Source of the DNA: Endomicrobiaceae bacterium | Lineage (GTDB): Bacteria; Elusimicrobiota; Endomicrobiia; Endomicrobiales; Endomicrobiaceae | Length of the DNA stretch: 58,808 nt | Reading direction: 5' to 3' | Assembly (NCBI GenBank): GCA_028690485.1 | Contig: JAQVBD010000005.1 | Coordinates: 6,165-64,972 of the forward strand | Part shown: piece after piece, positions 8,554 through 58,690 of the stretch | How the letters are laid out: each line of letters begins with the position of its first letter | Numbering within the stretch: the stretch's first letter is position 1 | Program-made: the position numbers and the translations under genes | The notes under the pieces: generated by a model | What the model was told of the DNA's origin: nothing | The model's input: only the letters and a program-made list of their open reading frames with translations | Databases searched by the model: none

Positions 8554-8582
8554 TTGACAAAAAAAATTTTTTGTTGTAGAAT
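8554..8582 (+). promoter_or_regulatory. glnA promoter
   Basis: A perfect -35 TTGACA (8554-8559) and a -10 TAGAAT (8577-8582) are 17 bases apart. The spacer is a run of A then T. Transcription should start near 8589, giving a leader of about 95 bases that contains the switch-like hairpins described next. Confidence 0.85.
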
Positions 8583-8603: not shown

Positions 8604-8654
8604 TTTGGGCAAAGGTGCTTAAAAGGTTAGAACAAATCTTTTAGGTATTTTTTT
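8604..8654 (+). promoter_or_regulatory. glnA leader: AAAG-hexaloop hairpin overlapping an intrinsic terminator (ANTAR-type switch candidate)
   Basis: Hairpin 1 is TTTGGGC (8604-8610), hexaloop AAAGGT, then GCTTAAA (8617-8623), seven pairs including two G-U. The competing hairpin has a 5' arm at 8611-8628 that begins at the first base of that hexaloop, a loop AGAACA (8629-8634), and a 3' arm at 8635-8652. It gives 18 pairs with several G-U, ending in a seven-base T tract (8648-8654), so it looks like an intrinsic terminator. The folds are mutually exclusive. Position 1 A and position 4 G of the first hexaloop fit the RNA recognised by ANTAR proteins. The second loop (AGAACA) has A1 but not G4, so the usual tandem-hairpin motif is not fully met. 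Confidence 0.65.
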
Positions 8655-10036: not shown

Positions 10037-10105
10037 TAGAATTTTAAATGGGCAAAGATGTCCAGAAGAGTACAAAGGTCTTCTGGACATCTTTACCATT
10101 TAAAA
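10037..10105 (+). promoter_or_regulatory. purF leader: -10 box plus AAAG-hexaloop hairpin inside a very long hairpin
   Basis: A -10 like TAGAAT (10037-10042) sits just upstream, so the RNA would start near the hairpin; no good -35 is seen. Hairpin 1 is TGGGC (10049-10053), hexaloop AAAGAT, GTCCA (10060-10064). The competing structure pairs 10054-10069 with 10079-10094 (16 perfect pairs, loop GTACAAAGG). It can extend outward by pairing TTTTAAATGG (10042-10051) with CCATTTAAAA (10096-10105). As in the glnA leader, the 5' arm of the long hairpin begins at the first base of the hexaloop. A proper T tract is lacking (only CTTTA follows the inner stem), so termination here would be weak or work differently. 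Confidence 0.6.
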
Positions 10106-10145: not shown

Positions 10146-11516
10146 ATGTGTGGTATATTTGGTATAGAGAATAATATTAATTCATCAACATTAGCATTTG
10201 CAGGTTTAATAACCTTGCAACATAGAGGTGAAGAGTCTGCAGGAATAACCTCAAATGGTGATGGCGATATATATAACACACATAAGTCTATGGGGTTAGT
10301 ATCTCAAATCTTTAAAGAAAAGATATTAAATACTCTTACCGGTAAAGTTTCTATAGGGCATGTAAGATACAGCACTCATTCAGAAAGCACTTTACTTAAT
10401 GCACAGCCTTTTGATTTTAACTGTATACATGGAAATATAGCCGTTGCACATAATGGCAATATAACAAATTTTGAAAAGATTAAAGATAGACTTGCTAAAA
10501 GTGGTTCTATTTTTAATCATACATCAGACACAGAGATAGTTGCTCATTTAATTGCTGAAAATACCGGAAAAACCATAGGACAAATTATAAGAAAGTCTGT
10601 ACAAAGTTTAGAAGGTGCATTTTCACTATTATTTATTCACAAAAACAAGTTAATAGGTGTCAGAGATTCTTTTGGTTTCAGACCTTTAGCATTAGGGAAA
10701 GTTGAAAATTCATATATTCTTGCCTCTGAAACAAGTGCGATAGATGCAATAGGTGGCAAGTTTATAAGGGATATTAAACCAGGTGAAATTATAGTAATTG
10801 AAAATGGCAAGATTATAGAGTCATTGCAATTGACAAAACAAACAAAAGAAAAATTATGTATTTTTGAGCAGGTATATTTTTCGAGACCAGACAGTATTCT
10901 TTGTGGAAGAAATATAAAAGATGCCAGAGTTGATATGGGTAAATATTTAGCACTACAAATGAAACACATAAAAGCTGATGTTGTTGTCCCTGTCCCAGAT
11001 ACCGGAATATTTTCTGCACAGGGTTTTTCACAAGCTTCTGGTATAGAGTTACAGATTGGTTTTATAAGAAACCATTATGTTGGTAGAAGCTTTATTAAAC
11101 CTTCACAAAAAATGAGAGAAATTACAGCAAAATTAAAGTTGTTTCCGATAAAAGATGTTATAAACGGCAAAAGAATTGTATTGATAGATGATTCTTTAGT
11201 CAGAGGAACAACAGCTCAAAAAATAGTTACAATGTTAAGAAATGTCGGTGCTAAAGAAATTCATTTGGCTTTATCGTCTCCGGCAGTAATATCGCCTTGT
11301 TTTTACGGGATAGATACACCGATTAAAAGCAAACTTATAGCATCTTTAAAATCTATAGAAGAAATTAAAAATTTCTTAAATGTTGATAGTCTTACATTCT
11401 TAAATATTGAAAATATGAAAAAAGCATGTGGAAATGGAAGACCCAATAATTTTTGTTCTGCTTGTTTTGATGGCAAATACCCGTCAAAAATAGACAAAAA
11501 GAAGTTAAATGCTTAA
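10146..11516 (+). CDS. purF: Amidophosphoribosyltransferase (glutamine PRPP amidotransferase)
   Basis: It transfers the amide nitrogen of glutamine to PRPP, the first committed step of purine synthesis. The start MCGIFGIE puts the nucleophile at Cys2 with no long propeptide. The N-terminal Ntn-hydrolase domain has LQHRGEESAGI and HNGNITN. The C-terminal phosphoribosyltransferase domain carries the PRPP loop VLIDDSLVRGTT. Cysteines in CIFEQVYFSRPDS, SPCFYGIDTP and NNFCSACFDGKYP match the four ligands of the [4Fe-4S] cluster of the Bacillus-type enzyme. The gene is not in a purine operon but lies between glnA and the amt-glnB unit, with its own structured leader, so it appears to be controlled with nitrogen supply. 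Confidence 0.93.
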   Translation: MCGIFGIENNINSSTLAFAGLITLQHRGEESAGITSNGDGDIYNTHKSMGLVSQIFKEKILNTLTGKVSIGHVRYSTHSESTLLNAQPFDFNCIHGNIAVAHNGNITNFEKIKDRLAKSGSIFNHTSDTEIVAHLIAENTGKTIGQIIRKSVQSLEGAFSLLFIHKNKLIGVRDSFGFRPLALGKVENSYILASETSAIDAIGGKFIRDIKPGEIIVIENGKIIESLQLTKQTKEKLCIFEQVYFSRPDSILCGRNIKDARVDMGKYLALQMKHIKADVVVPVPDTGIFSAQGFSQASGIELQIGFIRNHYVGRSFIKPSQKMREITAKLKLFPIKDVINGKRIVLIDDSLVRGTTAQKIVTMLRNVGAKEIHLALSSPAVISPCFYGIDTPIKSKLIASLKSIEEIKNFLNVDSLTFLNIENMKKACGNGRPNNFCSACFDGKYPSKIDKKKLNA

Positions 11517-11551: not shown

Positions 11552-11614
11552 TATAATTTTAAATATTGGACAAAGTAGCCCAAGAGATTTGTAATCTTTT
11601 GGGCTACTTTTTTT
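11552..11614 (+). promoter_or_regulatory. porin-amt-glnB leader: AAAG-hexaloop hairpin overlapping a strong intrinsic terminator
   Basis: A TATAAT -10 (11552-11557) lies just upstream, so the RNA likely begins at the hairpin. Hairpin 1 is TTGGAC (11566-11571), hexaloop AAAGTA, GCCCAA (11578-11583), with one A-C mismatch. The terminator pairs 11572-11588 with 11594-11610 (17 pairs, one G-U, loop TTGTA), followed by TTTT. The 5' arm starts exactly at the hexaloop, as in the glnA and purF leaders. The ten bases AATTTTAAAT before hairpin 1 are also shared with the purF leader. The terminator lies about 110 bases before the porin ATG and would stop the whole operon unless hairpin 1 forms. Confidence 0.7.
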
Positions 11615-11645
11615 GTACATATATTTTATTTAATGCTTTTAAAAA

Positions 11646-11691
11646 TTTTGCAAAGGAGCAAAAACATAAGGAGGTACCAAAGGTTTTTGTT
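11646..11691 (+). promoter_or_regulatory. Second AAAG-hexaloop hairpin in the porin leader
   Basis: TTTTGC (11646-11651), hexaloop AAAGGA and GCAAAA (11658-11663) make a perfect six-pair hairpin with A1 and G4. Again bases from the loop onward can pair downstream: GGAGCAAAAAC (11655-11665) with GTTTTTGTTTC near 11683-11693, enclosing a GGAGG decoy. No T tract follows. It could be the second half of a tandem ANTAR site or a separate control of translation. The real ribosome site of the porin (AAAGGAG, about 11711) lies outside. Confidence 0.45.
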
Positions 11692-12805: not shown

Positions 12806-14185
12806 ATGAAAAAAGTATTATTTACAATGTTGTTTTGTTTTATTTCTCTGTTTGCATTTAATATTATACAAGCAGAAGATTTGACAGGAATTCAGGAAGA
12901 AAATGCTGTAGTTGAAACGACATCTGCAGCTTCTGTTGCTGAACCAACAGAAGCAGTAGTAACACCAGCTTCTACAATAGACACCGGAGATACAGCATTC
13001 ATGCTGGTTTGTTCAGCACTTGTTATGCTTATGACTCCAGGATTAGCTCTATTTTATGGAGGGATGGTCAGGCGAAAAAATGTTTTAGGTACAATGATGC
13101 AAAGCTTTGTAGCTTTAGGTGTAGTAACTATTGCATGGGTTATTTATGGTTATAGTTTAGCTTTTGGCCCTGATATAGGTCATTTGATAGGCAGTTTAAA
13201 ATGGGCGTTTTTAAATGGTGTCGGGCTTGATCCTAATCCTGATTATTCTGCGACAATACCTCACCAATTGTTTATGATATTTCAAATGATGTTTGCAGTT
13301 TTAACACCGGCTTTAATAACTGGTGCATTTGCAGAAAGATTTAAATTTAAATCATACCTAATCTTTTTAGTTGTTTGGTTAACTTTTGTTTATTGTCCTC
13401 TTGCTCATTGGGTATGGGGAGTTGACGGTTGGATAAGAAATCTTGGTGGACTAGATTTCGCCGGTGGACTTGTTGTTCATATAGCTTCAGGAACATCTGC
13501 ACTAGCTACAATATTAGTTATAGGAACAAGAAGAGGTTACAAAAAAGAAAATATGCCACCTCACAGTTTGCCACTTACTTTGTTAGGTACGGCGCTATTG
13601 TGGTTTGGATGGTTTGGTTTTAATGCAGGAAGTGCTTTATCTGCAGGACAATTATCAGCTTCAGCTTTTGTTGTAACACATATAGCAGCTGGTGCTGCTG
13701 TTCTTGCTTGGATGTGTGCAGAATGGTTAATAAGAGGCAAAGCTACTGTTTTGGGCGCTCTTTCTGGTGCAGTTGCAGGACTTGTTGCAATTACTCCAGG
13801 TTCAGGTTTTGTTACCCCTATATCATCTGTATTTATTGGTATAGCAGGCGGACTTGTATGCTTTTTTGCAGTAAATATGAAAGAAAAATTGGGATATGAT
13901 GATTCTTTAGATGTTGTCGGTGTCCATGGTGTTGGCGGTATGGTAGGTGCTCTTTTAACAGGTGTGTTTGCTACGACTCTTGTAAATTCTGCTGGTGCAA
14001 ACGGGAGTTTTGCATTATTAAAAATTCAGATGATCAGTGTAGTAGCAGCAATAGTATACTCTTTTATAGTTTCTTTCATTTTGCTTAAAATAATTGATAA
14101 AATGTTTGGATTAAGAGTTACAGATAAAGAAGAGCTTCAAGGTCTTGATTTATCACAACATGGCGAAAGCGGATATAGATTCTAA
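12806..14185 (+). CDS. amt: Ammonium transporter, Amt family
   Basis: It is an inner-membrane channel for ammonium. The 459 residues begin with a signal-like segment and an extracytoplasmic stretch, then eleven hydrophobic helices. Family signatures seen are FYGGMVRRKNVLGTMMQSF, HWVWGVDGW, DFAGGLVVHIASG and VVGVHGVGGMVGALLTGVFA. The two histidines of the pore are expected in the segment around CPLAHWVW and in GVHGVGG. The gene is followed 20 bases later by the PII gene, the classic amt-glnK pairing in which PII plugs the channel when nitrogen is plentiful. Confidence 0.95.
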   Translation: MKKVLFTMLFCFISLFAFNIIQAEDLTGIQEENAVVETTSAASVAEPTEAVVTPASTIDTGDTAFMLVCSALVMLMTPGLALFYGGMVRRKNVLGTMMQSFVALGVVTIAWVIYGYSLAFGPDIGHLIGSLKWAFLNGVGLDPNPDYSATIPHQLFMIFQMMFAVLTPALITGAFAERFKFKSYLIFLVVWLTFVYCPLAHWVWGVDGWIRNLGGLDFAGGLVVHIASGTSALATILVIGTRRGYKKENMPPHSLPLTLLGTALLWFGWFGFNAGSALSAGQLSASAFVVTHIAAGAAVLAWMCAEWLIRGKATVLGALSGAVAGLVAITPGSGFVTPISSVFIGIAGGLVCFFAVNMKEKLGYDDSLDVVGVHGVGGMVGALLTGVFATTLVNSAGANGSFALLKIQMISVVAAIVYSFIVSFILLKIIDKMFGLRVTDKEELQGLDLSQHGESGYRF

Positions 14186-14205: not shown

Positions 14206-14544
14206 ATGAAAAAGGTAAGTGCAATAATAAAACCATATATGGTAGAAGATGTTAAAAATGCTTTAAAGGCAATAGATGTCAATGGGTTAACAAAATCTAA
14301 TGTTGAAGGTTTTGGTAAACAAGGTGGGCATAAAGAAATTTACAGAAGTAAAGAATACTGTGTTCAATTTGTTGTAAAAGCAAAAATTGAAGTTATTGTA
14401 CAAGATGAAATGGTAGATAAAGTTATAGATGTAATAATAAAAACTACCAGAAGCGGAGAAATTGGTGACGGCAAAATTTTTGTTTATCCAGTAGAAAGAG
14501 TTATCAGAATCAGGACTGGGGAAGAAGGAGACAAAGCTATATAG
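14206..14544 (+). CDS. glnB: Nitrogen regulatory protein PII (GlnB/GlnK)
   Basis: This 112-residue trimeric signal protein senses ATP/ADP and 2-oxoglutarate. The T loop is VEGFGKQGGHKEIYRSKEY. Tyr51, the uridylylation site of enteric PII, is present. The B-loop TRSGEIGDGKIFVYPVERVIRIRTGEEG is highly conserved. Being directly behind amt, it most likely acts as GlnK, gating Amt. Whether it is uridylylated is unknown, as no glnD is in the window. A strong terminator follows. Confidence 0.95.
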   Translation: MKKVSAIIKPYMVEDVKNALKAIDVNGLTKSNVEGFGKQGGHKEIYRSKEYCVQFVVKAKIEVIVQDEMVDKVIDVIIKTTRSGEIGDGKIFVYPVERVIRIRTGEEGDKAI

Positions 14545-18407: not shown

Positions 18408-18782
18408 ATGGCGTTTTATTCAGAAAAAGTAATGGATCACTTTGCAAATCCTAGGAATGTAGGCGAGATAAAAGATGCTGATGGTGTCGGAGAAATAGGT
18501 AATCCTGTTTGTGGTGATATGATGAAATTTTATATCAAAGTCAAAGATAACATAATAGAAGATGTAAAATTTAAAACATTTGGTTGTGGAGCAGCTATAG
18601 CTGTATCTTCAATGGTATCAGAGATGGCACTTGGCAAAACTTTAGAAGAGGCTTTAGAAATTACAAATGCATCCGTCGCACAGGAATTAGGCGGACTTCC
18701 TCCTAATAAAATGCACTGTTCAAACTTAGGTGCAGATGCATTACACAGAGCAATAGAAGACTATAAAAAGAAAGGTGCATAA
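18408..18782 (+). CDS. NifU/IscU-type iron-sulfur scaffold protein
   Basis: It holds newly assembled Fe-S clusters. All three scaffold cysteines are present: GNPVCGDMM, TFGCGAAIAV and KMHCSNLG. The Asp next to the first Cys that tunes cluster release is also there. The protein has 124 residues, a single-domain IscU without NifU extensions. The start chosen is the second ATG, because GGAGGG lies six bases ahead of it and inside an upstream in-frame ATG. It follows the lysine-less NifS-like gene by 21 bases and overlaps the stop of the next gene's start, so they act as a pair. Confidence 0.92.
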   Translation: MAFYSEKVMDHFANPRNVGEIKDADGVGEIGNPVCGDMMKFYIKVKDNIIEDVKFKTFGCGAAIAVSSMVSEMALGKTLEEALEITNASVAQELGGLPPNKMHCSNLGADALHRAIEDYKKKGA

Positions 18783-42910: not shown

Positions 42911-43564
42911 ATGATAATAACAGTTCAAAAAAACTTTTCTGATTTATTAATGCAAACTACTGATAAAGATAAAATTTTTATTGTAGGTTGCGCCGGTTGT
43001 GCAACTAAATGTAATACCGGCAGTGAAGCTGCCATTTTGGAAATTGAAGAAAATTTTAAACAAAACAACAGAATTGTAAGTGGTTTTGCAGTTTTAGATA
43101 CAGCTTGCGATATAAGAGTTGCAAAAAAAGAGCTCATAAAAAATAATAATTTTTCAGAAGCTACAATAATACTTGCTCTGACTTGCGGTGCAGGTATTCA
43201 AGCTATAGAGAAAATTACAGATTTAAAAATTATTGCAGGTCTTGACGGATTATTTGTCGGAACAACTGAACGAATTGGTGTTTATAATCAATATTGCAGT
43301 ACTTGCGGACAATGTATTGTTGATAAGACTGCAGGAATATGTCCTGTTACAAGATGTTCAAAAGGCCTGATAAACGGACCTTGTGGAGGTTTTGTAAATG
43401 GGAAATGTGAAGTTGATCAAGAAAAAGATTGTGCTTGGGTATTAATTTACGAGAAACTTAAAAAAACAAATTCAGTAAATATAATAAAAGATACATATCT
43501 GCCACCACGAAACATTGTAAAGCCTAAAAATATAATTTATAAAAAAAAAGACATCAAACAATGA
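42911..43564 (+). CDS. metV: MetV-like zinc protein, partner of methylene-THF reductase
   Basis: It belongs to the methylene-tetrahydrofolate reductase C-terminal (MTHFR_C) family that forms the MetVF complex in acetogens such as Moorella. Cysteine motifs are CAGCATKCNTG near residue 25-35, TCGAGIQ, YCSTCGQCIV and the diagnostic end CPVTRCSKGLINGPCGGFVNGKCEVDQEKDCAW. It likely binds zinc or Fe-S and couples the reductase to electron donors. It overlaps metF by four bases. Confidence 0.85.
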   Translation: MIITVQKNFSDLLMQTTDKDKIFIVGCAGCATKCNTGSEAAILEIEENFKQNNRIVSGFAVLDTACDIRVAKKELIKNNNFSEATIILALTCGAGIQAIEKITDLKIIAGLDGLFVGTTERIGVYNQYCSTCGQCIVDKTAGICPVTRCSKGLINGPCGGFVNGKCEVDQEKDCAWVLIYEKLKKTNSVNIIKDTYLPPRNIVKPKNIIYKKKDIKQ

Positions 43565-45347: not shown

Positions 45348-47870
45348 ATGAATAGAATAAAAAAATATATTTGTTTTTGCTTTATTTGTATCACTTTTTT
45401 GTGTTTTACAAACAACCTTTTTGCTGTCCCGGCAAATCCTAACCCAATCAAAATCACACAACCTGACGGAACAAATATAACAATTCAAGCAAGAGGTGAT
45501 GAATTTTATCATTGGGATGAAACTTCCGAGGGTTACACCATATTAAAAGATACAGAAACAAAATTTTGGACTTATGCACAGAAAAATCAAGATGGAAGTT
45601 TGCTACCTTCAAGTTATATTGTTGGTAAAGTTTCTGCAATATCAACAGGGTTACATAAATCATTAAAAGATGATATTAAATTAAATGCTGCCCAAACAAA
45701 AATCAGCGCATTGAATACATATTCACAAAAAACATATCAAAAAATATCACAACAACTATCAAGCCAAAACAAAACAGTATCTTCTATAGGAACAAAGAAA
45801 AATTTAGTTATTCTTGTTGAATTTAGTGATTTAGGTTTCAGAGATAACAAACCATTTAGTTCATCTTCAACCGACAATGAAATTAGAGCGGAATATGATA
45901 AATTATTCAATACTACTAATTATACAGAAGATGGAGCGGTTGGTTCAGTTAAAGATTTTTTCAATGAAGTATCTTATGGAGCACTTACTATGGAATCAGT
46001 TATATCTCCTATAGTAAAACTTGATTCCAGCTATGTTGAATACGGAGAAAGTTCAAGTGCAACAAAAACTTCAAGAGATATGGTAAAAGAAGCTTTGGCA
46101 AAACTTGAAGCTGCCGGGTACGATTTTAAAGCAATTTGGCCATCTTCAGATGAGCCGGAAGGTTTAACTTTCATACATGCTGGGGGCGGAGCGGAATATG
46201 CAGGAAATGATTCGGCTTATATATGGTCACATAAATGGTCATTAGCAACTCCTGTCATATATGATGGTATTACATTCAGTTTATTTCATACTGAACCTGC
46301 CAGAAGAGGTTGGGATATTGCTGCTTCAACACAAGGTTTAACAAGAATAGGTGTTATATGTCATGAATCTACTCATTTTTTTGGTATGCCTGATTTATAC
46401 GATTATACATATACAAGTGAAGGATTAGGTAAATTTTGTTTAATGTCAGGCGGAAGCTGGAATGCTTCTGATTCTAATAACGCAGGCAACTGTCCGGCTC
46501 ATCCATCCGCATGGATAAAATATCAACTTGGTTGGATTGTCCCAAAAACTCCTAAAGCAGGCACAAATACAATAGGAACATCTGCGACATCAAGTGTTGC
46601 TTTTTATAAATTAACTGGAGAATATTTTAGTGCCAGTGAATATTTTTTAATGGAAAACAGACAAAGTGTTGGTTTTGATAAATATATTCCGGGAACTACA
46701 AGAGGTATCTTAATTTATCATGTAGACGAAACACAATCTGATAATAATGATAGAACTCATTATCTAGTTGATTTGGAAGAAGCTGATGGAACAGCCGTAT
46801 GGACTAATGATCATTTAGCAAATGATACAAACAGTGGCTTAGATTCAGATTACTATAGAAATAATACAGTAACTGTTTTTAATGACAGTTGCTCATCCTC
46901 TCCTAATAGTAAAAGTTATTCATACCAGTCATCAAGTATAGATATTTCTCAAATTTCTGCAAGTAACGCTGTAATGTCATTTGTTGCACCAGAACAACCA
47001 AACTATACAAATTTTATTGAATACTTAACAGATACAAAAGGAGTTAAATTCTTAAATTTGGTAATGAAATATTCACCGGAAAAAACAAAAACAGAATTGT
47101 TGTTATTAGATACAACTGAACAAGCAAATATAAATAAATATTTTACATTTACAACTTCTGGAGCACTGGAAGCTGACAATATGTATAATATTTATGATGC
47201 TTATAATAATAATTTATCAATTTATGATATACAAAAAACTCAGACAGGTCTAGTTTCGGCATCACAAGCAAATTTAATTAATAAGCTAAATTATGATCTA
47301 AAAAACTCATCTCAAAGTTTTACTTCTGTCGGCAATATTAGTACAAATAATAATCCTCCAACTGAAGAAGATACATCAACTGCAATCAATAACAAGCGTT
47401 TTACAGGCACCGAAGCAATTACAAATATAGCAACGTATTCTGAGGAATTAGGTTATTTATTTCCTAAATTATCAGATATGTATTCTGGTGAAGGATATGA
47501 TATTATTGAAGTTATTTCTACAATGAATATATCACAGTATACAAATTATGTTTATATACAAGGTGAAGCAGTAATTTATCATGATTTATCAAATGTTGTA
47601 TTTTTCCCTAATCCTGCAAGAAATGGACAAATTAATATTATCAAATTACCTTCAAATTCAAGTACTTTAGATATACAAATTTATACGATAACTGGGAAAA
47701 TAGTTAAAACTTTTAATATATCAGATACACAATTAAATGGAGACGGTTCAAGAAGTTTAAAATGGAATTGCAAAAATCAAGGCGGAGATAATGTCGCTCC
47801 AGGTGTATATTTAATTATGATTAAAACATCTTCCGATAAAAAAATATCAAAAATTGCAATTATAAGATAG
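45348..47870 (+). CDS. Secreted M6-family metalloprotease with type IX sorting-like C-terminus (copy A)
   Basis: It has a signal peptide (about 1-28, to NNLFAVPANP) and a propeptide-like stretch. The zinc site CHESTHFFGMPDLYDYTYTSEGLGKFCLMSGGSWN begins at H339, E340 and H343, as in immune-inhibitor-A type proteases. A further about 150-residue region (MKYSPEKTKTELLLLDTTEQ) has no name I know. The last about 90 residues are a FlgD/sorting domain (FFPNPARNGQINII, YTITGKIV, WNCKNQGG, GVYLIMIKT, SKIAIIR). It likely leaves the cell and degrades protein. Copy B follows 62 bases later. Confidence 0.88.
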   Translation: MNRIKKYICFCFICITFLCFTNNLFAVPANPNPIKITQPDGTNITIQARGDEFYHWDETSEGYTILKDTETKFWTYAQKNQDGSLLPSSYIVGKVSAISTGLHKSLKDDIKLNAAQTKISALNTYSQKTYQKISQQLSSQNKTVSSIGTKKNLVILVEFSDLGFRDNKPFSSSSTDNEIRAEYDKLFNTTNYTEDGAVGSVKDFFNEVSYGALTMESVISPIVKLDSSYVEYGESSSATKTSRDMVKEALAKLEAAGYDFKAIWPSSDEPEGLTFIHAGGGAEYAGNDSAYIWSHKWSLATPVIYDGITFSLFHTEPARRGWDIAASTQGLTRIGVICHESTHFFGMPDLYDYTYTSEGLGKFCLMSGGSWNASDSNNAGNCPAHPSAWIKYQLGWIVPKTPKAGTNTIGTSATSSVAFYKLTGEYFSASEYFLMENRQSVGFDKYIPGTTRGILIYHVDETQSDNNDRTHYLVDLEEADGTAVWTNDHLANDTNSGLDSDYYRNNTVTVFNDSCSSSPNSKSYSYQSSSIDISQISASNAVMSFVAPEQPNYTNFIEYLTDTKGVKFLNLVMKYSPEKTKTELLLLDTTEQANINKYFTFTTSGALEADNMYNIYDAYNNNLSIYDIQKTQTGLVSASQANLINKLNYDLKNSSQSFTSVGNISTNNNPPTEEDTSTAINNKRFTGTEAITNIATYSEELGYLFPKLSDMYSGEGYDIIEVISTMNISQYTNYVYIQGEAVIYHDLSNVVFFPNPARNGQINIIKLPSNSSTLDIQIYTITGKIVKTFNISDTQLNGDGSRSLKWNCKNQGGDNVAPGVYLIMIKTSSDKKISKIAIIR

Positions 47871-47949
47871 TAACAATATATAAATCAAAATACTTTTTAG
47901 TATATATTTTAATTTATATATCAGTTAAATTTTGATAAAATTGCAAATA

Positions 47950-50427
47950 ATGAATAAGATTATTGTTGTATTATTGTTTGTACTCGGAATGGTTATTTTA
48001 TTTAAAGATAGAATTTTTGCTATTTCTGCAAGTCCTGATCCAATTGAAATTACACAACCTGATGGAACAAAAATAAAAATAAAAATAAAGGGTGATGAAT
48101 TCTATCATTGGTTTGAAGATAATGATGGATATACCATATTAAAAGATACAGAAACAAAATCATGGGTTTATGCTATAAAAAATAATAATTCTTATTTAGA
48201 AAAGTCTGATAAAATAGTTGGCAAAATACAACCTTCTTCTCTTGGAATACAAAAATCAATGAAAGATAATTCTGTAATAAATAATTCAATCCAAAAAATA
48301 AAAAAATACACATTATCAACTTCAAAAATCACCACTTCATCTATACAAAAAACATTACCGTCAACCGGAACTATAAAAAATTTGGTAATCTTAGTAGAAT
48401 TCAGTGACAAAAGTATGGAATTTTCTCAAACTGAAATTTATAATTTATTTAATAAAACAAATTATACAACTGATGGAGCCGTAGGATCTGTTAAAGATTT
48501 TTTTAATGAAATTTCATATAACTCCTTAAATGTTGAATCTATAGTTACAGATATTGTTACTCTTGATAATGGATATGCCTATTATGGTGCAAATGACTCA
48601 CATGGTGATGATATAAGACCAAGAGAAATGGTAAAAGAAGCTTTATCAAAACTTAATAGTCAGGGTTTTGATTTTACACAAGCAGATTCCGATGGAGATG
48701 GATGGGTTGATATGTTAACAGTTTTACATTCTGGTTGTGGGGAAGAAGCATCCTCTGATACAAATAATATCTGGTCACACAGATGGGAAATACAAACTAC
48801 TTTTACTACTCATGATAATATTAAGTTAAAAGAATACATGACCGTTCCTGAAAGACGAGGAAGCGAAAGTTCCACAATTGGTATTATTAGAATAGGGGTA
48901 ATTTGCCATGAATTAACACATTTACTTTATATGCCTGATTTAGCAATATATGTACCGGATTTATATGATACTTCTTACAATAGTAATGGTCTTGGAAAAT
49001 TTTGTTTAATGGCCAGCGGAAGCTGGAACGGATCTTCTGGCAACAGGCCTGCTCACCCATGTGCTTGGATTAAATACAGACTTGGATGGATTAACACTCA
49101 AACTCCTCAATCCGGAACAAATACAATAGGACCATCGGCTACATCCAATACTGCCTTTTATAAACTTACCGGAGACTCTTTTAGTGCCAGTGAATATTTT
49201 TTAATAGAAAACAGACAAAGTATTGGCTTTGATATAGGACTACCTGGAACTTTAAGAGGTCTTTTAATTTACCACATTGATGAAACACAGTCTGATAATG
49301 ATGACAGGACTCATTATCTAGTTGATTTGGAAGAAGCTGATGGCAGTTCAATATGGACTAATGATCATTTAGCAAATAATATCAATAAAGGATTAGATTC
49401 TGATTATTATAGAAATAATACAGTAGCTGTTTTTAATGACAGTTGTTCATCCTCTCCTAATAGTAAAAGTTATTCATACAAGTCATCAAATATAGATATT
49501 TCTCAAATTTCTGCAAGTGCTGCAACAATGTCTTTTGTTACTCCTGAAGAAGAAAATTATGAAAATTTTATTAATGCTTTAACAGATGATAAAGGTCTTA
49601 AATTTTTAAATTTGATAATGAAATATTCTCCGGAAAAAACAAAAACAGAATTGCTATTATTAAATACAACTGAACAAGCAAATATAAATAAATATTTTAC
49701 GTTTACAACTTCTGGAGCCAGCCAAGCTGATCAAATGGCAGATGTATATTATGGTTATATTGATAATGGAATTATTTATGATATATCAAAAAACCAGACA
49801 GGTATAGTTTCTTCAGATCAGGCAAATTTAATTAATAAATCAAATGCTAATCTTTCGAATTCTTTACAAACAATTAAAACCATCGGCAATATTAGTGACA
49901 AGGATAATCCTCCAACCGAACAAGACACAACAACAGCAATTACAAACAAAAGATTTACAGGCACAGAAGCTATTGAAAACATAAAAATAGATATTACAAA
50001 TTTGGGTTATTTATTACCTGAATTTTCAGATATGTATTCTGGTGAAGGATACAATATTATTGAAATAACTCCTGATATAGATTTATCAATTTATCCAAAT
50101 TATGTTTATATCAAAGGAGATGAGAGCATTTCTTTTGATAATCTATCTAAAATTGTTGCTTTTCCCAATCCATCAAGAAATGGAGAAATCACTTTTATAA
50201 ATTTACCTACAAATACAACAAAACTTGATACACGAATTTTTACAATTACATCTCAACCTGTGAAAAGTTTTACAATAAATGATACGGAATTTATTTCTAA
50301 TGGGAATAGAAAATTAAAATGGGATTGCCGAAATTACAATGGAGATAGTGTCGCTCAAGGAATATATTTTGTAATGTTTAAGACGGAAGCTGATAAAAAA
50401 ATAATAAAAATCGCAATTATAAGGTAA
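47950..50427 (+). CDS. Secreted M6-family metalloprotease with type IX sorting-like C-terminus (copy B)
   Basis: It is a paralogue of copy A along its entire length. The zinc motif is HELTH (H320-H324). The following conserved Gly is Tyr, and PDL is repeated (MPDLAIYVPDLYD), which may alter the active-site loop. Before it, DSDGDGWVDMLTVLHSG looks like a calcium loop that copy A has lost (WPSSDEPEGLTFIHAG). The C-terminal sorting domain ends IKIAIIR. The start is placed at the ATG before NKIIVVLLFVLGMVILF, since the upstream TTG adds only six residues. Codon use equals that of neighbours, so duplication here is local. Confidence 0.87.
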   Translation: MNKIIVVLLFVLGMVILFKDRIFAISASPDPIEITQPDGTKIKIKIKGDEFYHWFEDNDGYTILKDTETKSWVYAIKNNNSYLEKSDKIVGKIQPSSLGIQKSMKDNSVINNSIQKIKKYTLSTSKITTSSIQKTLPSTGTIKNLVILVEFSDKSMEFSQTEIYNLFNKTNYTTDGAVGSVKDFFNEISYNSLNVESIVTDIVTLDNGYAYYGANDSHGDDIRPREMVKEALSKLNSQGFDFTQADSDGDGWVDMLTVLHSGCGEEASSDTNNIWSHRWEIQTTFTTHDNIKLKEYMTVPERRGSESSTIGIIRIGVICHELTHLLYMPDLAIYVPDLYDTSYNSNGLGKFCLMASGSWNGSSGNRPAHPCAWIKYRLGWINTQTPQSGTNTIGPSATSNTAFYKLTGDSFSASEYFLIENRQSIGFDIGLPGTLRGLLIYHIDETQSDNDDRTHYLVDLEEADGSSIWTNDHLANNINKGLDSDYYRNNTVAVFNDSCSSSPNSKSYSYKSSNIDISQISASAATMSFVTPEEENYENFINALTDDKGLKFLNLIMKYSPEKTKTELLLLNTTEQANINKYFTFTTSGASQADQMADVYYGYIDNGIIYDISKNQTGIVSSDQANLINKSNANLSNSLQTIKTIGNISDKDNPPTEQDTTTAITNKRFTGTEAIENIKIDITNLGYLLPEFSDMYSGEGYNIIEITPDIDLSIYPNYVYIKGDESISFDNLSKIVAFPNPSRNGEITFINLPTNTTKLDTRIFTITSQPVKSFTINDTEFISNGNRKLKWDCRNYNGDSVAQGIYFVMFKTEADKKIIKIAIIR

Positions 50428-52627: not shown

Positions 52628-55600
52628 TTACAAATTTATGCAATGAGATTTTTGCAATTTTTCGTAATCGTCGAAAGCTTTTAAATAAGCCATAACTTTT
52701 TCAGTATTAGTTAAAATTGAACATCCACATTTTATAGCTGTTTTTCTGATTTCAGCATTATCTTTTCTATCAGTTAAATCAAAATTTTTATGTATATTTA
52801 TTACAAAATCAACTTTACCGTCTTTTATAATATCAACAGCTCTCGGACTATCGTTCCAATGTACAACATTAACATTATAGCCTCTTTCTTTTAAATATTT
52901 AGCTGTTCCTGTTGTTGCATACACAGGGACATTTAATCTGTATAAGCTATCAATAACTTCCATAAATTTCAATTTATCTTTTTCTCTGCCGGAACTTAAC
53001 AATACACCTTTTTTAGGTTTTTTAATCTGTGTTGCTTCAAATGACAAAATCATTGCTTGGTTAAAACTACTGCCAAGACACCCTACTTCCCCTGTAGATC
53101 CCATTTCAACACCAGTTACAGGATCAGCACCGTCAAGTCTCTGATAACTAAACATAGAAGCTTTTATACCGACAAAAGGTATTTCACTTTCATCAATAAC
53201 AATCTTTTTAATTTTTTCTTTATTCATTACTTTACAAGATATTTCTGCAAGATTTTTCCCGGATACTTTTGAAATAAAAGGGAATGATCTGGATGCTCTG
53301 GAATTACATTCTATAACTTTAACATCGTTGTCTTTTGCAATAAATTGTATATTGAAAGGTCCATTAAGATTTAACCCTTTTGCTATTTTTCTAACAATAT
53401 CTTTTATTGCATTAACTGTTTTAACATAAAGTTTTTCCGGCGGAAAAACTAAAGTAGCATCTCCGCTATGAACACCTGCATTTTCAACATGTTCGCTGAC
53501 AAGTGATATTATCACTTCGCCATCTTTTGCTACACCATCACATTCAACTTCTTTTGCATCAAGGATAAATTTAGATATAACAACAGGATAATCATCAGAA
53601 ATATCTTTTGTAAGTGACAAGAAATAATCTAAGCTCGTATCATCATTTGCAACATTCATCAATGTTCCTGACAAAACAAAACTAGGCCTTATTAAAACAG
53701 GATATCCTATTCTCTTAATAAACTCATCTATTTCATGTCTTGAAGTTGCAGATATCCATTCCGGTTGATCTATTCCTAATTTATCAAGTAATGTTGAAAA
53801 TTTATTTCTATCTTCTGCCATATCAACAGTTTTTGCGCTATGTCCTAAAATTTTAACTTTAGCTTCGCTTAACGGCTGAATTAAATTATTTGGATTTTGA
53901 CCGCCCATTGAAGCGATAACACCTTTAGGCTTTTCGATATCTACTATATCTAAAACTCTTTCAAAAGACAATTCTTCAAAATACAATCTGTTAGATGTAG
54001 AAAAATCAGTTGACACTGTTTCCGGATTACAATTTATAATAACACTGTCTGACCTTTTACCTTTAAAATATTTACTTGTCATAACAGAACACCAGTCAAA
54101 CTCTAAACTGCTACCTATACGATAACTGCCACTGCCAAGAGTTATAATGCTGGAATTCTTCTTAGTCAAAGTAATATCGTTATGTTGCCCGTCATAAGAC
54201 AAATAAAGATAATTAGAACCTGTTGGATATTCTGCTGAAGTTGTATCTATCTGTTTTACTACAGGAACAACATTTAATTTTTTTCTTAATTTTCTTACTT
54301 GTAAAGATAATGTTTTAATTTGTTTTTGATTATATTTTGTTTTTGGATCTTTTACACTTAAGAAAAATTTTACTAACTGATAATCTGAAAATCCTAACGA
54401 TTTTAATTTCCTTAAATATCCCTTATCCAAAGTTTTAAATGCTTCATATACATTTTTAGTCTTTGTTTTTGCTAGTATTGCTGTTACTTCATTTTCTGTA
54501 TCTGCTAATGTTTGGACATGAGTTAAAAACCATTTTGAAATCTTAGACAATTCCGCAATTTTTTCTAAAGTATATCCTCTTTTGAAAGCTTCATATATAG
54601 CAAATAGTCGTAAATTTGTAGGATTTTCGATTTCATACTCTAAAGCTTCTTTTGAAGCATCTTTAAATACACCGGTTGTAATGCCTTCTTCATTTTCGTT
54701 AACCATCCTGATAGCTTTTTGTGTTATTTCACAAAAGTTTCTACCGATAGCCATAACTTCACCAACAGATTTCATTTGTGTCCCAAGCAATTTGGAAACA
54801 CCTGTAAATTTTGTTAAATCCCATCTAGGAACTTTTAATGTTACATAATCTAATGATGGTTCAAAAAAAGCTGAAGTTGTTGTTGTTACAGGATTTTTAA
54901 GTTCAAGTAAATCAAAACCGGATACAACTTTTGCTGCAATATAAGCTATCGGATAACCAGTCGCTTTTGAAGCAAGTGCCGAAGATCTTGAAAGTCTTGC
55001 ATTTATTTCTATAACATAAAATTCATATTTATATGGACTTAATGCAAACTGCACATTACATTCACCAACTACACCTATACTATGTACTATTTTTATAGCA
55101 GTATCTCTAAGCATGTTATTTTCAATATTATCAATAGTTTGACAAGGAGCTATAACAATAGAATCACCTGTGTGTATCCCCATAGGGTCAAAATTTTCCA
55201 TATTACAAATTGTAATACAGTTACCTTGCCTATCCCTCATTACTTCATATTCAATTTCTTTCCAACCATGTAAAGATTTTTCTATCAAAATTTGTGGTAC
55301 AGACATGAGTGCAGACTGTGCAAGATTTTTTAGTGTTTCCGGATCTTTAGCAAGACCACTGCCTAAACCACCCAACGCAAAAGCAGATCTTGTAATAACT
55401 GGATAACCTATTTCTTCAGCAACCTTTAAAGCATCTTTAACGGTTGAAACAGCTTTACTTGCAGGAATAGGAACATTTATTTCCTGCATTCTCTTTGCAA
55501 ATAAATCTCTATTTTCAGAAACTTCTAAAGCTTCTACTGAAGTTCCTAAAACTTCGACACCATATTTTTTAAGTACACCTGATTTTTCAAGTTCAATAAC

Positions 55601-55915
55601 ACAATTTAAAGCGGTCTGTCCGCCAAAACTAGAAATAATACCAATAGGTCTTTCTTGTTCTATAATTTTTTCTACCCAAAAAGGGGTAACAGGATATAAA
55701 AATACTTTTTTATCTATATCACTATTCGTTTGAACAGATGCAATATTAGGATTAACAACAAGAACTTCAAGACCTTCTTCCTGTAATGCTTTAACTGCTT
55801 GAGAACCTGAATAATCAAATTCTCCTGCTTGTCCTATAGCTAAGGCACCTGAACCTAATAATATTACTTTTTGTTTTTTATTTGCTTTTGGGTTTAAAAA
55901 CTTTAGTATTGGCAT
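52628..55915 (-). CDS. carB: Carbamoyl-phosphate synthase large subunit
   Basis: It makes carbamoyl phosphate from bicarbonate, ammonia and two ATP, feeding arginine and pyrimidine synthesis. Two ATP-grasp halves are seen (GSGALAIGQAGEFDYSGSQA at the start, GSGSYRIGSSLEFDWCSV at about 600). The C-terminal allosteric MGS-like domain starts near 940 with KKGVLLSSGREKDKL. The 1095 residues are normal. It lies 243 bases after carA in the same direction, separated by an intergenic hairpin. Confidence 0.96.
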   Translation of the reverse strand: MPILKFLNPKANKKQKVILLGSGALAIGQAGEFDYSGSQAVKALQEEGLEVLVVNPNIASVQTNSDIDKKVFLYPVTPFWVEKIIEQERPIGIISSFGGQTALNCVIELEKSGVLKKYGVEVLGTSVEALEVSENRDLFAKRMQEINVPIPASKAVSTVKDALKVAEEIGYPVITRSAFALGGLGSGLAKDPETLKNLAQSALMSVPQILIEKSLHGWKEIEYEVMRDRQGNCITICNMENFDPMGIHTGDSIVIAPCQTIDNIENNMLRDTAIKIVHSIGVVGECNVQFALSPYKYEFYVIEINARLSRSSALASKATGYPIAYIAAKVVSGFDLLELKNPVTTTTSAFFEPSLDYVTLKVPRWDLTKFTGVSKLLGTQMKSVGEVMAIGRNFCEITQKAIRMVNENEEGITTGVFKDASKEALEYEIENPTNLRLFAIYEAFKRGYTLEKIAELSKISKWFLTHVQTLADTENEVTAILAKTKTKNVYEAFKTLDKGYLRKLKSLGFSDYQLVKFFLSVKDPKTKYNQKQIKTLSLQVRKLRKKLNVVPVVKQIDTTSAEYPTGSNYLYLSYDGQHNDITLTKKNSSIITLGSGSYRIGSSLEFDWCSVMTSKYFKGKRSDSVIINCNPETVSTDFSTSNRLYFEELSFERVLDIVDIEKPKGVIASMGGQNPNNLIQPLSEAKVKILGHSAKTVDMAEDRNKFSTLLDKLGIDQPEWISATSRHEIDEFIKRIGYPVLIRPSFVLSGTLMNVANDDTSLDYFLSLTKDISDDYPVVISKFILDAKEVECDGVAKDGEVIISLVSEHVENAGVHSGDATLVFPPEKLYVKTVNAIKDIVRKIAKGLNLNGPFNIQFIAKDNDVKVIECNSRASRSFPFISKVSGKNLAEISCKVMNKEKIKKIVIDESEIPFVGIKASMFSYQRLDGADPVTGVEMGSTGEVGCLGSSFNQAMILSFEATQIKKPKKGVLLSSGREKDKLKFMEVIDSLYRLNVPVYATTGTAKYLKERGYNVNVVHWNDSPRAVDIIKDGKVDFVINIHKNFDLTDRKDNAEIRKTAIKCGCSILTNTEKVMAYLKAFDDYEKLQKSHCINL

Positions 55916-55977
55916 TTTTTCCTCTTTCTCAAATTTCTCAAAATTATATCGGATTTAATTTCCAGACTGCACCTTTG

Positions 55978-56028
55978 AAATTCCCGTCACCATGTATCGT
56001 TTGTATACACAATGGACGGGAATTTTTT
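55978..56028. promoter_or_regulatory. Conserved-looking hairpin between carA and carB
   Basis: An inverted repeat AAATTCCCGT/ACGGGAATTT encloses inner CCA/TGG and TGTAT/ATACA pairings with small bulges. On the plus strand it ends in a T run (TTTTTT) as a terminator does, but no plus-strand gene precedes it. On the minus strand, which both car genes use, a short AAAAAA lies before and TTTC after. It may be a bidirectional terminator, or a regulatory leader of carB; a TATAAT on the minus strand lies downstream near 55946. Confidence 0.4.
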
Positions 56029-56158
56029 GGTTCAATTTAAAATTTTAATCATATTAAAAACTATACAGACATTTAAATTCTGTAACAAATACAATTATTT
56101 CAAAATAAACACATATATACATTACTATAAATTTGCAATCAAAATATCAATATTACTA

Positions 56159-57298
56159 TTAAAGAGCCTTAATAAATTGGTCCAAAATCCATCCTGTATC
56201 ATTAGGTCCACTAGAAGCTTCAGGATGAAACTGTACAGACATAAAAGGTTTAGTTTTATGTTTTATACCTTCAACACCTTTATCATTTGCATTTTCAAAC
56301 CATAAATCCCAGCTAGGTTCAATTGTACTTTGATCAACGGTATAACTATGATTTTGACTAGTCATAAATGCTTTATGTCCAGGTATTGCAAATACCGGCT
56401 GATTATGACTTCTGTGTCCGTAAGGCATTTTTTTAATTTTTGCACCGGATGCTAGAGAAATAATCTGATGTCCTAAACATATACCTAAAACAGGTTTAGT
56501 TCCTTCTAATAAATTTGCAACTCTATTAACTAAATCACCAGTATTTCTAGGATCTCCGGGACCATTACTTATAAGCCAACCATCGGCTTGAACTTTTGAA
56601 AAATCACTATCCCAAGGAATAAGTTCTATCTGGCATCCCTTAGCAACTAACATTCTTAAAATATTCCATTTAACACCGCAATCAACAACAGCTACTTTCT
56701 TCTTACCTTGTCCATACATTTGATTTGTTGGAGTAGAAACTGTTGGCATTAAATTAAATTTTGAAGGATCAACATATTCATCTTTTTTAAAATTTTCCAC
56801 AAATGGAAATTTCTTTAAAGTATTTTCTCTTTTACATCCTTCAGGAACTATCCATCCGAAAAGATTTCTACTATTTCTTATAGTCTGTACTAAGTATCTT
56901 GTATCAACACCAACAATACCAGGAACTTGTTGACTAATCATCCACTCTTCTAATGATATCCCATTATTATGATGATAACATTCATCGAAAATCTCTGAAG
57001 CAATAATACCTTGTGTTTTTATTGATGAACTTTCATGTCCATAAGACATAAAAAAATCCCCACCATTTAAGGTAGGGACACCATAATTACCTATAAGACA
57101 AAAACTAAATACTAGTATTTGTCCGACATATGATGGATCGGACATAGATTCACTATATCCCAACATACCGGTATTAAAAACCATTTCACCGCTAACAGCA
57201 ACATCTGACCCAATTAATTTACCTTCAAATTTCATACCATTAGAAAGTTCTAATGTAGCTTTTTTTCTAGTTTGTTTTTTAGTCATTGTTTTATCCAT
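56159..57298 (-). CDS. carA: Carbamoyl-phosphate synthase small subunit (glutamine amidotransferase)
   Basis: It takes ammonia from glutamine for CarB. Signatures are LELSNGMKFEGKLIG near the start, the class I glutaminase triad in LGICLGHQIISLASG (Cys nucleophile) and SVQFHPEASSGP (His, Glu), plus NGPGDPRN. The 379 residues are normal. The ATG overlaps the stop of the ANTAR regulator by one base (TAATG), so they are translationally coupled, an unusual link. Confidence 0.96.
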   Translation of the reverse strand: MDKTMTKKQTRKKATLELSNGMKFEGKLIGSDVAVSGEMVFNTGMLGYSESMSDPSYVGQILVFSFCLIGNYGVPTLNGGDFFMSYGHESSSIKTQGIIASEIFDECYHHNNGISLEEWMISQQVPGIVGVDTRYLVQTIRNSRNLFGWIVPEGCKRENTLKKFPFVENFKKDEYVDPSKFNLMPTVSTPTNQMYGQGKKKVAVVDCGVKWNILRMLVAKGCQIELIPWDSDFSKVQADGWLISNGPGDPRNTGDLVNRVANLLEGTKPVLGICLGHQIISLASGAKIKKMPYGHRSHNQPVFAIPGHKAFMTSQNHSYTVDQSTIEPSWDLWFENANDKGVEGIKHKTKPFMSVQFHPEASSGPNDTGWILDQFIKAL

Positions 57299-57891
57299 TA
57301 TTTGTCTTCTATAAAATCAAACATCTTTATTATTGTTTTGGCTATATCGTTTATAGTTCTGCCGGAATCCATAGCTTTTTTTTGCAAATTTCTATATGCT
57401 TGAGCTTCATCTAATTTAAATTTTTTCATCAAGATGCCTCTAGCTCTGTCAACATTTTTTCTTTCTTCAAGTTGTTGTTCAAGATTTAATACTTTCTTTT
57501 CCATATCATAAAACTTATGAGAAAGTCTGACGGCAAGTTCTGTTGTATGCAATAAAACTTGATTGTTTATCGGTTTTGTAATACAGAATATATCTATCGA
57601 ATGTTTCTTTAAATCATCAATATAATCACTCTGTGTCATACTTGTTAATATAATAGTAGGACAAATTCTTAGTTCTTCTATTTTACTTGCAAGAGTAAAA
57701 CCATTCATATCAAGTAATGTATAATCCGTAATAACAGCAGCAGGTAACATCATAGAAATTTTTCTTAAAGCCTCATTACCTGAATTAGACAAATATATTA
57801 TAGAAAATGTATTTTGGGATAAAGATAGAACAGTCTTTATTTCATTTGCCAAGTTATCTGAACAAACTAATATTATTTTAGAATTATCCAT
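57298..57891 (-). CDS. ANTAR-domain response regulator (AmiR/NasT type)
   Basis: This is a two-domain protein. The receiver domain (1-120) has phospho-Asp D56 in VITDYTLLDMNGF, T83/S84 and the conserved K106 (ITKPI). Residues 120-145 form a coiled coil (DMEKKVLNLEQQLEERKN). The ANTAR domain at about 145-190 has RARGILMKKFKLDEAQAYRNLQKKAMDSGRTINDIA. ANTAR proteins bind RNA hairpins with A1/G4 hexaloops and stop terminators from forming. It sits between the glutamate synthase domain gene and carA. Its probable targets are the three AAAG-hexaloop leaders of glnA, purF and porin-amt-glnB in this window. The partner kinase is not visible. Confidence 0.92.
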   Translation of the reverse strand: MDNSKIILVCSDNLANEIKTVLSLSQNTFSIIYLSNSGNEALRKISMMLPAAVITDYTLLDMNGFTLASKIEELRICPTIILTSMTQSDYIDDLKKHSIDIFCITKPINNQVLLHTTELAVRLSHKFYDMEKKVLNLEQQLEERKNVDRARGILMKKFKLDEAQAYRNLQKKAMDSGRTINDIAKTIIKMFDFIEDK

Positions 57892-57949
57892 ACATAGTTC
57901 CTAACTGTATATTATATAAAAAAATTTCAAAAATATCAAAATATATATT

Positions 57950-58690
57950 TTAATATTTTGTATACATATTATTATATGGATTTTTATTTAATGTCATATA
58001 TTTAGAAAATTTATTTATATCAATTGTTTCTGTATATTTAAAATACTGTTTATACTGTTTAACATATTTTGCAAGCGTGTCTAAATCTGATTTTTCCATA
58101 TCAACTTTTCTTACTTCTTTGCCAAGTTTATGTTTAGGAATCATACCATTAATATACATAATTCCACCATGCATACCTGTACCGCAAAATTTTCCTGTCA
58201 GTTCTTCACCTTTAGAAAATCCAAGTCCTAAAACTATTATTATTCCACCAGCCATATATTCACCTAAAAAATCTCCGGCAACACCGCCAACAACTATAAC
58301 AGGTTTCATATCTAAATATTCTTTCATATGAATACCAACCCTGTATCCTACATTATCTCTTATAAAAATTTCTCCGCCTCTCATTGCATATCCTGCTGTA
58401 TCGCCGCAACTTCCATGAACAATTATTTTGCCTTTGTTCATTGTATTTCCAATAGCATCTTGTGCATTGGAAAGAACTTCTATTTCCGGCCCATCCATAT
58501 AAGCAGCCAAATCATTACCAGGCACACCATCAATAATAATTTTAACTTTTCCGCTGATGCCACAACCAATATATCTCTGACCAAAAACATTTTTCAATGT
58601 TATAGAATCATAGGTTAACGCCTTTTCTTTTATTTCTTTGTTTAAATCTCTGGCTAATCTTAAATTTACATCTATGTTTACATTACTCAT
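57950..58690 (-). CDS. Glutamate synthase GXGXG-domain protein (stand-alone)
   Basis: It is a 246-residue protein that equals only the C-terminal beta-helix domain of glutamate synthase large subunit: KNVFGQRYIGCGISGKVKI, GGEIFIRDNVGYRVGIHM, GVAGDFLGEYMAGGIIIVLG and TGKFCGTGMHGGIMYI. In archaeal-type enzymes the amidotransferase, FMN and GXGXG domains are separate genes. This gene overlaps the stop of the upstream partial gene by eight bases, as for a split enzyme. It likely joins other subunits to make glutamate from glutamine and 2-oxoglutarate. Confidence 0.9.
   Translation of the reverse strand: MSNVNIDVNLRLARDLNKEIKEKALTYDSITLKNVFGQRYIGCGISGKVKIIIDGVPGNDLAAYMDGPEIEVLSNAQDAIGNTMNKGKIIVHGSCGDTAGYAMRGGEIFIRDNVGYRVGIHMKEYLDMKPVIVVGGVAGDFLGEYMAGGIIIVLGLGFSKGEELTGKFCGTGMHGGIMYINGMIPKHKLGKEVRKVDMEKSDLDTLAKYVKQYKQYFKYTETIDINKFSKYMTLNKNPYNNMYTKY

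Follow-up and report, generated by a model that had tools for sequence, protein, structure and literature searches.

Antitermination of nitrogen genes by ANTAR proteins at paired hexaloop hairpins has been established or predicted (PMC3369931, PMC8934654). In the eut leaders of Enterococcus, antitermination depends on both hexaloops, and deletion of P1 abolishes induction (PMC3369931, PMC8934654). An overlap between hexaloop and terminator base is already known, the second hairpin being located at the 5′ base of the terminator (PMC3369931). In the structure of EutV the protein touches a single hexaloop, and its authors raised the question of how far single-hexaloop motifs work in nature (PMC8934654). 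A covariance search has predicted ANTAR leaders upstream of genes for glutamine synthetase, PII, an ammonium transporter, and nitrogenase (PMC3369931). Because its model was based on paired hairpins, that search would miss single-hexaloop leaders, and Elusimicrobia do not appear in its main text (PMC3369931). The amiE and nasF leaders are also described as dual hexaloops (PMC3369931), and AmiR is an ANTAR antiterminator with a pseudo-receiver (PMC8934654).

The window considered here is a whole stretch of 58,808 nucleotides from an Endomicrobiaceae bacterium (Elusimicrobiota), the genome of which is assembled in 122 contigs. Its glnA leader is very probably an attenuator that works through one hexaloop under the control of a REC-ANTAR protein whose gene lies in the same window, with purF and the porin-amt-glnB operon under the same element (Table 1). 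Sequence comparison shows the two alternative folds, conserved and covarying, as well as the regulon and the link to the ANTAR protein. As with EutV and the eutP, eutG, eutS, and eutA leaders of Enterococcus faecalis, an A1/G4 hexaloop excludes an intrinsic terminator, and the regulator is a REC-ANTAR protein with conserved RNA-contact residues. Unlike the eut system, the leader has one hexaloop rather than two, the phosphorylation pocket of the receiver is incomplete, no adjacent histidine kinase was seen, and the targets are ammonium assimilation genes. Target genes and terminator competition are the same as in the predicted nitrogen ANTAR leaders (PMC3369931). ANTAR antitermination is shared with AmiR/amiE (AmiC-AmiR) and NasS-NasT, while input through a protein partner, which is characteristic of those systems, is here only a candidate. 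ANTAR control of nitrogen genes is thus known in kind; what is new is the single hexaloop, the degenerate receiver, and a nitrogen regulon that extends across the family. With respect to the RNA, the novelty of the Endomicrobiaceae leaders is that the first, recruiting hairpin of the known ANTAR pair is missing.

Table 1. Features of the window and tandem leaders of related genomes
Feature	Position	Strand	Details
glnA promoter, sigma-70 type	8554-8582	+	TTGACA-17-TAGAAT; 11/12 consensus matches
P1 antiterminator hairpin	8604-8623	+	TTTGGGC [AAAGGT] GCTTAAA; 5′ arm 8604-8610, loop 8611-8616, 3′ arm 8617-8623
Terminator hairpin, 18 pairs	8611-8652	+	5′ arm 8611-8628, tip AGAACA 8629-8634, 3′ arm 8635-8652
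T7 tract ending glnA terminator	8648-8654	+	sequence
glnA, GSI-alpha glutamine synthetase, 442 aa	8684-10012	+	start codon 8684
Second element, before purF	10045-10102	+	TGGGC[AAAGAT]GTCCA; loop 10054-10059; R2 36.8 bits, E 1e-4
purF, amidophosphoribosyltransferase	10146-11516	+	named from own sequence
Third element, before porin-amt-glnB operon	11563-11618	+	TTGGAC[AAAGTA]GCCCAA; loop 11572-11577
Extra A1/G4 hexaloop hairpin, porin-amt-glnB leader	11646-11663	+	TTTTGC[AAAGGA]GCAAAA; loop 11652-11657
amt	12806-14185	+	
glnB/PII	14206-14544	+	
Nitrogen gene cluster around ANTAR gene	52628-58690	-	GXGXG, ANTAR, carA, carB
carB	52628-55915	-	
carA	56159-57298	-	
REC-ANTAR protein, between GXGXG gene and carAB	57298-57891	-	profile search
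GXGXG glutamate-synthase domain protein	57950-58690	-	
Tandem leader L196	G010:C25:18596-18868		copies at 18596/18699/18816
Tandem leader L200	G019:C15:126369-126505		
Tandem leader L204	G004:C246:5034-5169		
Tandem leader L210	G031:C43:1080-1276		

P1 of the glnA leader has seven contiguous pairs, some of them G-U, and its hexaloop AAAGGT carries both A1 and G4, the positions that mark ANTAR targets; it is predicted to be the ANTAR binding site. Folding indicates that P1 overlaps and excludes a terminator-like hairpin in which AAAGGTGCTTAAAAGGTT (8611-8628) pairs with AATCTTTTAGGTATTTTT (8635-8652) at 18 of 18 positions, the 5′ arm consisting of the P1 loop, the P1 3′ arm, and five further nucleotides. 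The terminator fragment folds at −15.1 kcal/mol (z = −6.0; 0 of 200 shuffles equally stable) and the entire leader at −17.4 kcal/mol (z = −4.5). With increasing transcript length, P1 is the best structure to about nucleotide 52 to 56 of the leader and the terminator is best afterwards. P1 with an open hexaloop has a free energy of −4.4 kcal/mol; folding programs favor A1-U6 closure within the loop, so that AAGG remains. Both strands of the window were scanned for A1/G4 hexaloop hairpins in which the loop and the 3′ arm have a second pairing partner downstream, with a T-rich stretch after it. This loop-in-terminator arrangement was found at three sites on the plus strand and none on the minus strand, and was absent from 30 dinucleotide shuffles of the window. 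Two of the sites are the glnA and amt leaders, and the third, at 43022, was discounted as a chance occurrence inside a coding region. These results bear out the preliminary description, which had proposed the mutually exclusive 7-pair AAAGGT hairpin and 18-pair terminator, the seven terminal T residues, the full housekeeping promoter, and control of a GSI-alpha enzyme at the RNA level by a regulator, a candidate for which is now provided by the ANTAR gene.

The same description held that the default fold would stop transcription before glnA. The stable terminator fold stands, but a complete stop is too strong a claim: the 18-pair stem contains just 2 G-C pairs, and approximately five of its pairs are G-U. 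A generic terminator scan, which needs three G-C pairs, misses this terminator because of its low G-C content, and at −15.6 kcal/mol it is weaker than those of most homologous leaders (mostly −17 to −35 kcal/mol). For these reasons the weak, A/U-rich terminator is probably leaky.

The GSI-alpha assignment and the lack of an adenylylation site, also proposed earlier, agree with the protein comparisons. The best solved matches of GlnA are glutamine synthetases of the Bacillus/Paenibacillus type, and its motif DKNIFKM has Phe where related GSI-alpha enzymes read DRNIYVM; the loop at this position is adenylylated in enteric glutamine synthetase. Outside its own family, GlnA has ∼70% identity to its nearest relatives, in Clostridia, compared with ∼50% to other Elusimicrobiota, which suggests that glnA was acquired horizontally. 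An ANTAR gene next to it was perhaps transferred at the same time.

A covariance model (R2) that covers both P1 and the terminator, built from 11 homologous elements, found three clear sites in the genome, all within the window. The 56-bit score of the glnA element is inflated, its own sequence being in the training set, while the purF and porin-amt-glnB elements are not in that set. The purF leader has a very stable competing hairpin with a poor T-tract; the porin-amt-glnB element has one A·C mismatch in P1 and a strong terminator. The extra hexaloop hairpin in the latter leader re-pairs over 11 bp downstream in a structure that encloses AAGGAGG, and is possibly a tandem copy or a translational control. 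Other GCARNGNNGC sites inspected in the genome were rejected: they are without a downstream partner, and most look coding. Elsewhere in the window, at 45348-50427, lie two neighboring large secreted paralogues that resemble M6-type metalloproteases and appear to have C-terminal sorting-like domains.

Both structures are conserved beyond the window. In an alignment of 17 sequences from several phyla, chosen for showing both structures and therefore biased toward covariation, 92.9% of P1 cells and 88.2% of terminator cells are paired, and neither covariation score was reached by any of 500 shuffles. Sequence changes in the P1 5′ arm, the P1 3′ arm, and the terminator 3′ arm are coordinated (AAGC/GCTT/AAGC, GAGC/GCTC/GAGC, and GGGC/GCCC/GGGC) because the P1 3′ arm also serves the terminator. 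The P1 loop has A1 and G4 throughout 58 elements, although these were selected for A1/G4.

R2 matches occur in 28 of 60 related genomes, and within the family (36 genomes, including that of the window) the presence of the element follows that of the ANTAR gene. Of the 23 ANTAR-bearing members, 22 gave matches, and a direct scan showed that the exception, G005, also carries the element; among 13 ANTAR-less members, clear matches occur only in G034 (86% complete), these genomes being related and not 36 independent trials. A single weak match without P1 was found in another ANTAR-less genome (G029), and five ANTAR-less genomes retain amt with no element nearby. The glnA gene itself is present in all 23 ANTAR genomes and absent from 11 of the 13 without ANTAR, 5 of these 11 retaining amt; in many relatives the ANTAR gene is immediately 3′ of glnA. 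Elements in relatives precede glnA, purF, porin-amt-glnB, amt-glnB, ANTAR-carAB, and glutamate synthase genes, and also nifH (with a mismatch in P1), spermidine/putrescine-binding potD, dapF, diaminopimelate dehydrogenase (ddh), 5-oxoprolinase (pxpA), genes for urea-amidolyase-associated proteins, and GSIII. The element before ANTAR-carAB would constitute autoregulation. In some relatives, one leader contains two or three tandem single-hexaloop attenuators, each with its own terminator (Table 1). In another family of the phylum, covariance-model matches that have a terminator but lack P1 (G056:C7:56377-56422, L186; G059:C2:495568-495614, L187) precede a very large gene of >1,100 codons.

Several other readings of the leader RNA were considered. 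In the preliminary description AGAACA counted as another ANTAR loop, departing mildly from the canonical rule, which would make this a dual-hexaloop leader with a degenerate second hairpin. AGAACA is indeed a 6-nucleotide loop beginning with A, and canonical dual-hexaloop leaders do precede glnA in some Clostridia (L065 and L074). However, the AGAACA hairpin is the terminator itself, so that binding there would leave termination unprevented, and across the 58 homologous elements the tip at this position varies from 3 to 13 nucleotides, is unconserved, and is never an A1/G4 hexaloop (in the congener G001 it is the 7-nucleotide ATGATGA). This part of the earlier proposal was therefore abandoned, and a degenerate dual leader is highly improbable. 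Nor does a second hairpin appear upstream: a second G4 hexaloop 5′ of P1 occurs in 2 of the 58 elements against 1.1 expected, a search for conserved motifs 5′ of P1 found A-richness alone, and recognizable TATAAT- or TAGAAT-like −10 boxes lie mostly ∼18 to 33 nucleotides 5′ of P1. In the glnA leader the gap between −10 box and P1 stem is ∼21 nucleotides, and a second upstream hairpin therefore has no room. On this comparison the glnA leader reads as a single-hexaloop leader in which a second A1/G4 hairpin is absent. The weak, A/U-rich stem could also be that of an unregulated leaky terminator or a processing hairpin with the hexaloop as a by-product, but the P1 5′ arm, dispensable for a terminator, has been conserved and shows covariation with the 3′ arm, and the element follows ANTAR presence and precedes nitrogen genes; we regard this explanation as unlikely, if slightly less so than a dual leader. 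Least credible of all is a metabolite riboswitch (e.g., a glutamine riboswitch), with which a small structured leader and an intrinsic terminator before glnA would be compatible: an antiterminator of only ∼20 nucleotides leaves no room for an aptamer. Among 4,227 Rfam families there was no match at the gathering score or at a relaxed E-value, the best subthreshold match being at chance level, and assignment to a catalogued riboswitch or a catalogued ANTAR RNA family was rejected.

A further alternative accepts the same RNA switch and concerns its input only. The REC-ANTAR protein is the sole ANTAR protein of the genome, and its gene is 49 kb from the glnA leader. Its ANTAR domain (PF03861; receiver, PF00072) scores 64.7 bits against a cutoff of 27.3, and the RNA-contact residues R144, K145, Y166, and M174 are identical to EutV R142, K143, Y164, and M172, with R149 in place of K147. 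The preliminary description assumed a phosphorylated regulator, and an unlinked histidine kinase might phosphorylate the protein in the manner of EutVW, given that D56, T83, and K106 are retained and that several histidine-kinase-like ATPase domains are encoded in the genome. None of these matches, however, is on the 65-kb contig that carries the ANTAR gene, and S11 (in S11-D12) replaces one acidic residue of the pocket. Most ANTAR proteins of the family have lost further acidic pocket residues and the Thr (mostly replaced by Ala), and D56 is replaced by Glu in G017 and by Asn or Gly in the glnA-adjacent ANTAR proteins of L089 and L067. The family receivers also have a conserved Cys (DIFCITKP) at the position of the EutV switch residue Tyr101. 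Given a receiver pocket that is degenerate across most of the family and the loss of the Asp in L067 and L089, phosphorylation as the input is doubtful, and we would give the kinase perhaps one chance in a few. A partner protein or ligand is the likelier input, since the receiver is degenerate; feedback-inhibited GlnA is an attractive candidate and PII is another.

For the single-hexaloop attenuator favored here, we infer that the ANTAR protein binds the leader, that binding promotes expression, and that nitrogen shortage is the signal. Transcription would start ∼15 nucleotides 5′ of P1, and P1 would fold first. When active ANTAR protein is missing, the emerging 3′ arm of the terminator would displace P1, and a fraction of transcripts would end at the T7 tract. 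Active protein would hold AAAGGT and keep the loop and the P1 3′ arm from the terminator, and polymerase would then read into glnA. By analogy with EutV, G4 would be stacked on Tyr166, with Met174 as a plug. The purF gene and the porin-amt-glnB operon of the window would be controlled through the same element, and the signal would probably enter by a route other than ordinary phosphorylation. As the eut leaders need both hexaloops, a one-hexaloop leader might work differently from them.

The Endomicrobiaceae leaders represent natural one-hexaloop attenuators with a full predicted regulon and one ANTAR protein, and the single-hexaloop question becomes directly testable. Such leaders are overlooked by searches that require the dual hairpin. 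The system also points to the existence of phosphorylation-independent ANTAR proteins, and it provides a predicted nitrogen control circuit for Elusimicrobiota, a phylum in which little regulation is known.

In a set of 78 glnA leaders, drawn almost entirely from other phyla, the loop-in-terminator element was present in 10, compared with 0.06% of shuffled leaders. Most such leaders have no second hexaloop (L089 from Calditrichales, L108 from Thermoguttaceae, L091, L099, L101, and L124 mostly from Oscillospiraceae, L092, and L107), and the leader of Clostridium paridis (L067) has a similar layout by eye. These nine leaders have in common with that of the window a loop within the terminator arm and no second A1/G4 hexaloop, but their stem sequences differ (often GAAC/GTTC) and their terminators are often shorter. 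The Heliophilum leader (L078), which looked single at first, was not counted as such because another hexaloop, GACGGT, lies upstream. ANTAR genes occur in 27 of 28 compared glnA genomes without the element and in 12 of 12 with a hexaloop leader, so that cooccurrence outside the family is uninformative, ANTAR being almost universal there. We tentatively suggest, as a possibility for which the odds are somewhat against, that one hexaloop at the start of the transcript suffices for antitermination in the nitrogen leaders of the Endomicrobiaceae as a family and in scattered glnA leaders of Clostridia, Calditrichota, and Planctomycetota. It would be read by a pseudo-receiver ANTAR protein to which a partner protein passes the signal; the most plausible partner is GSI-alpha glutamine synthetase in its feedback-inhibited state, because the ANTAR gene is often 3′ of glnA and the two genes cooccur in the family. 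Matches of a further model (R3) elsewhere in these genomes are mostly terminators without a proper P1. An exception, in a gut genome, is a TGAAC[AACGGC]GTTC loop-in-terminator element (G065:C1:260606-260659, L253) directly 5′ of pyrG, which encodes the glutamine-dependent CTP synthase.
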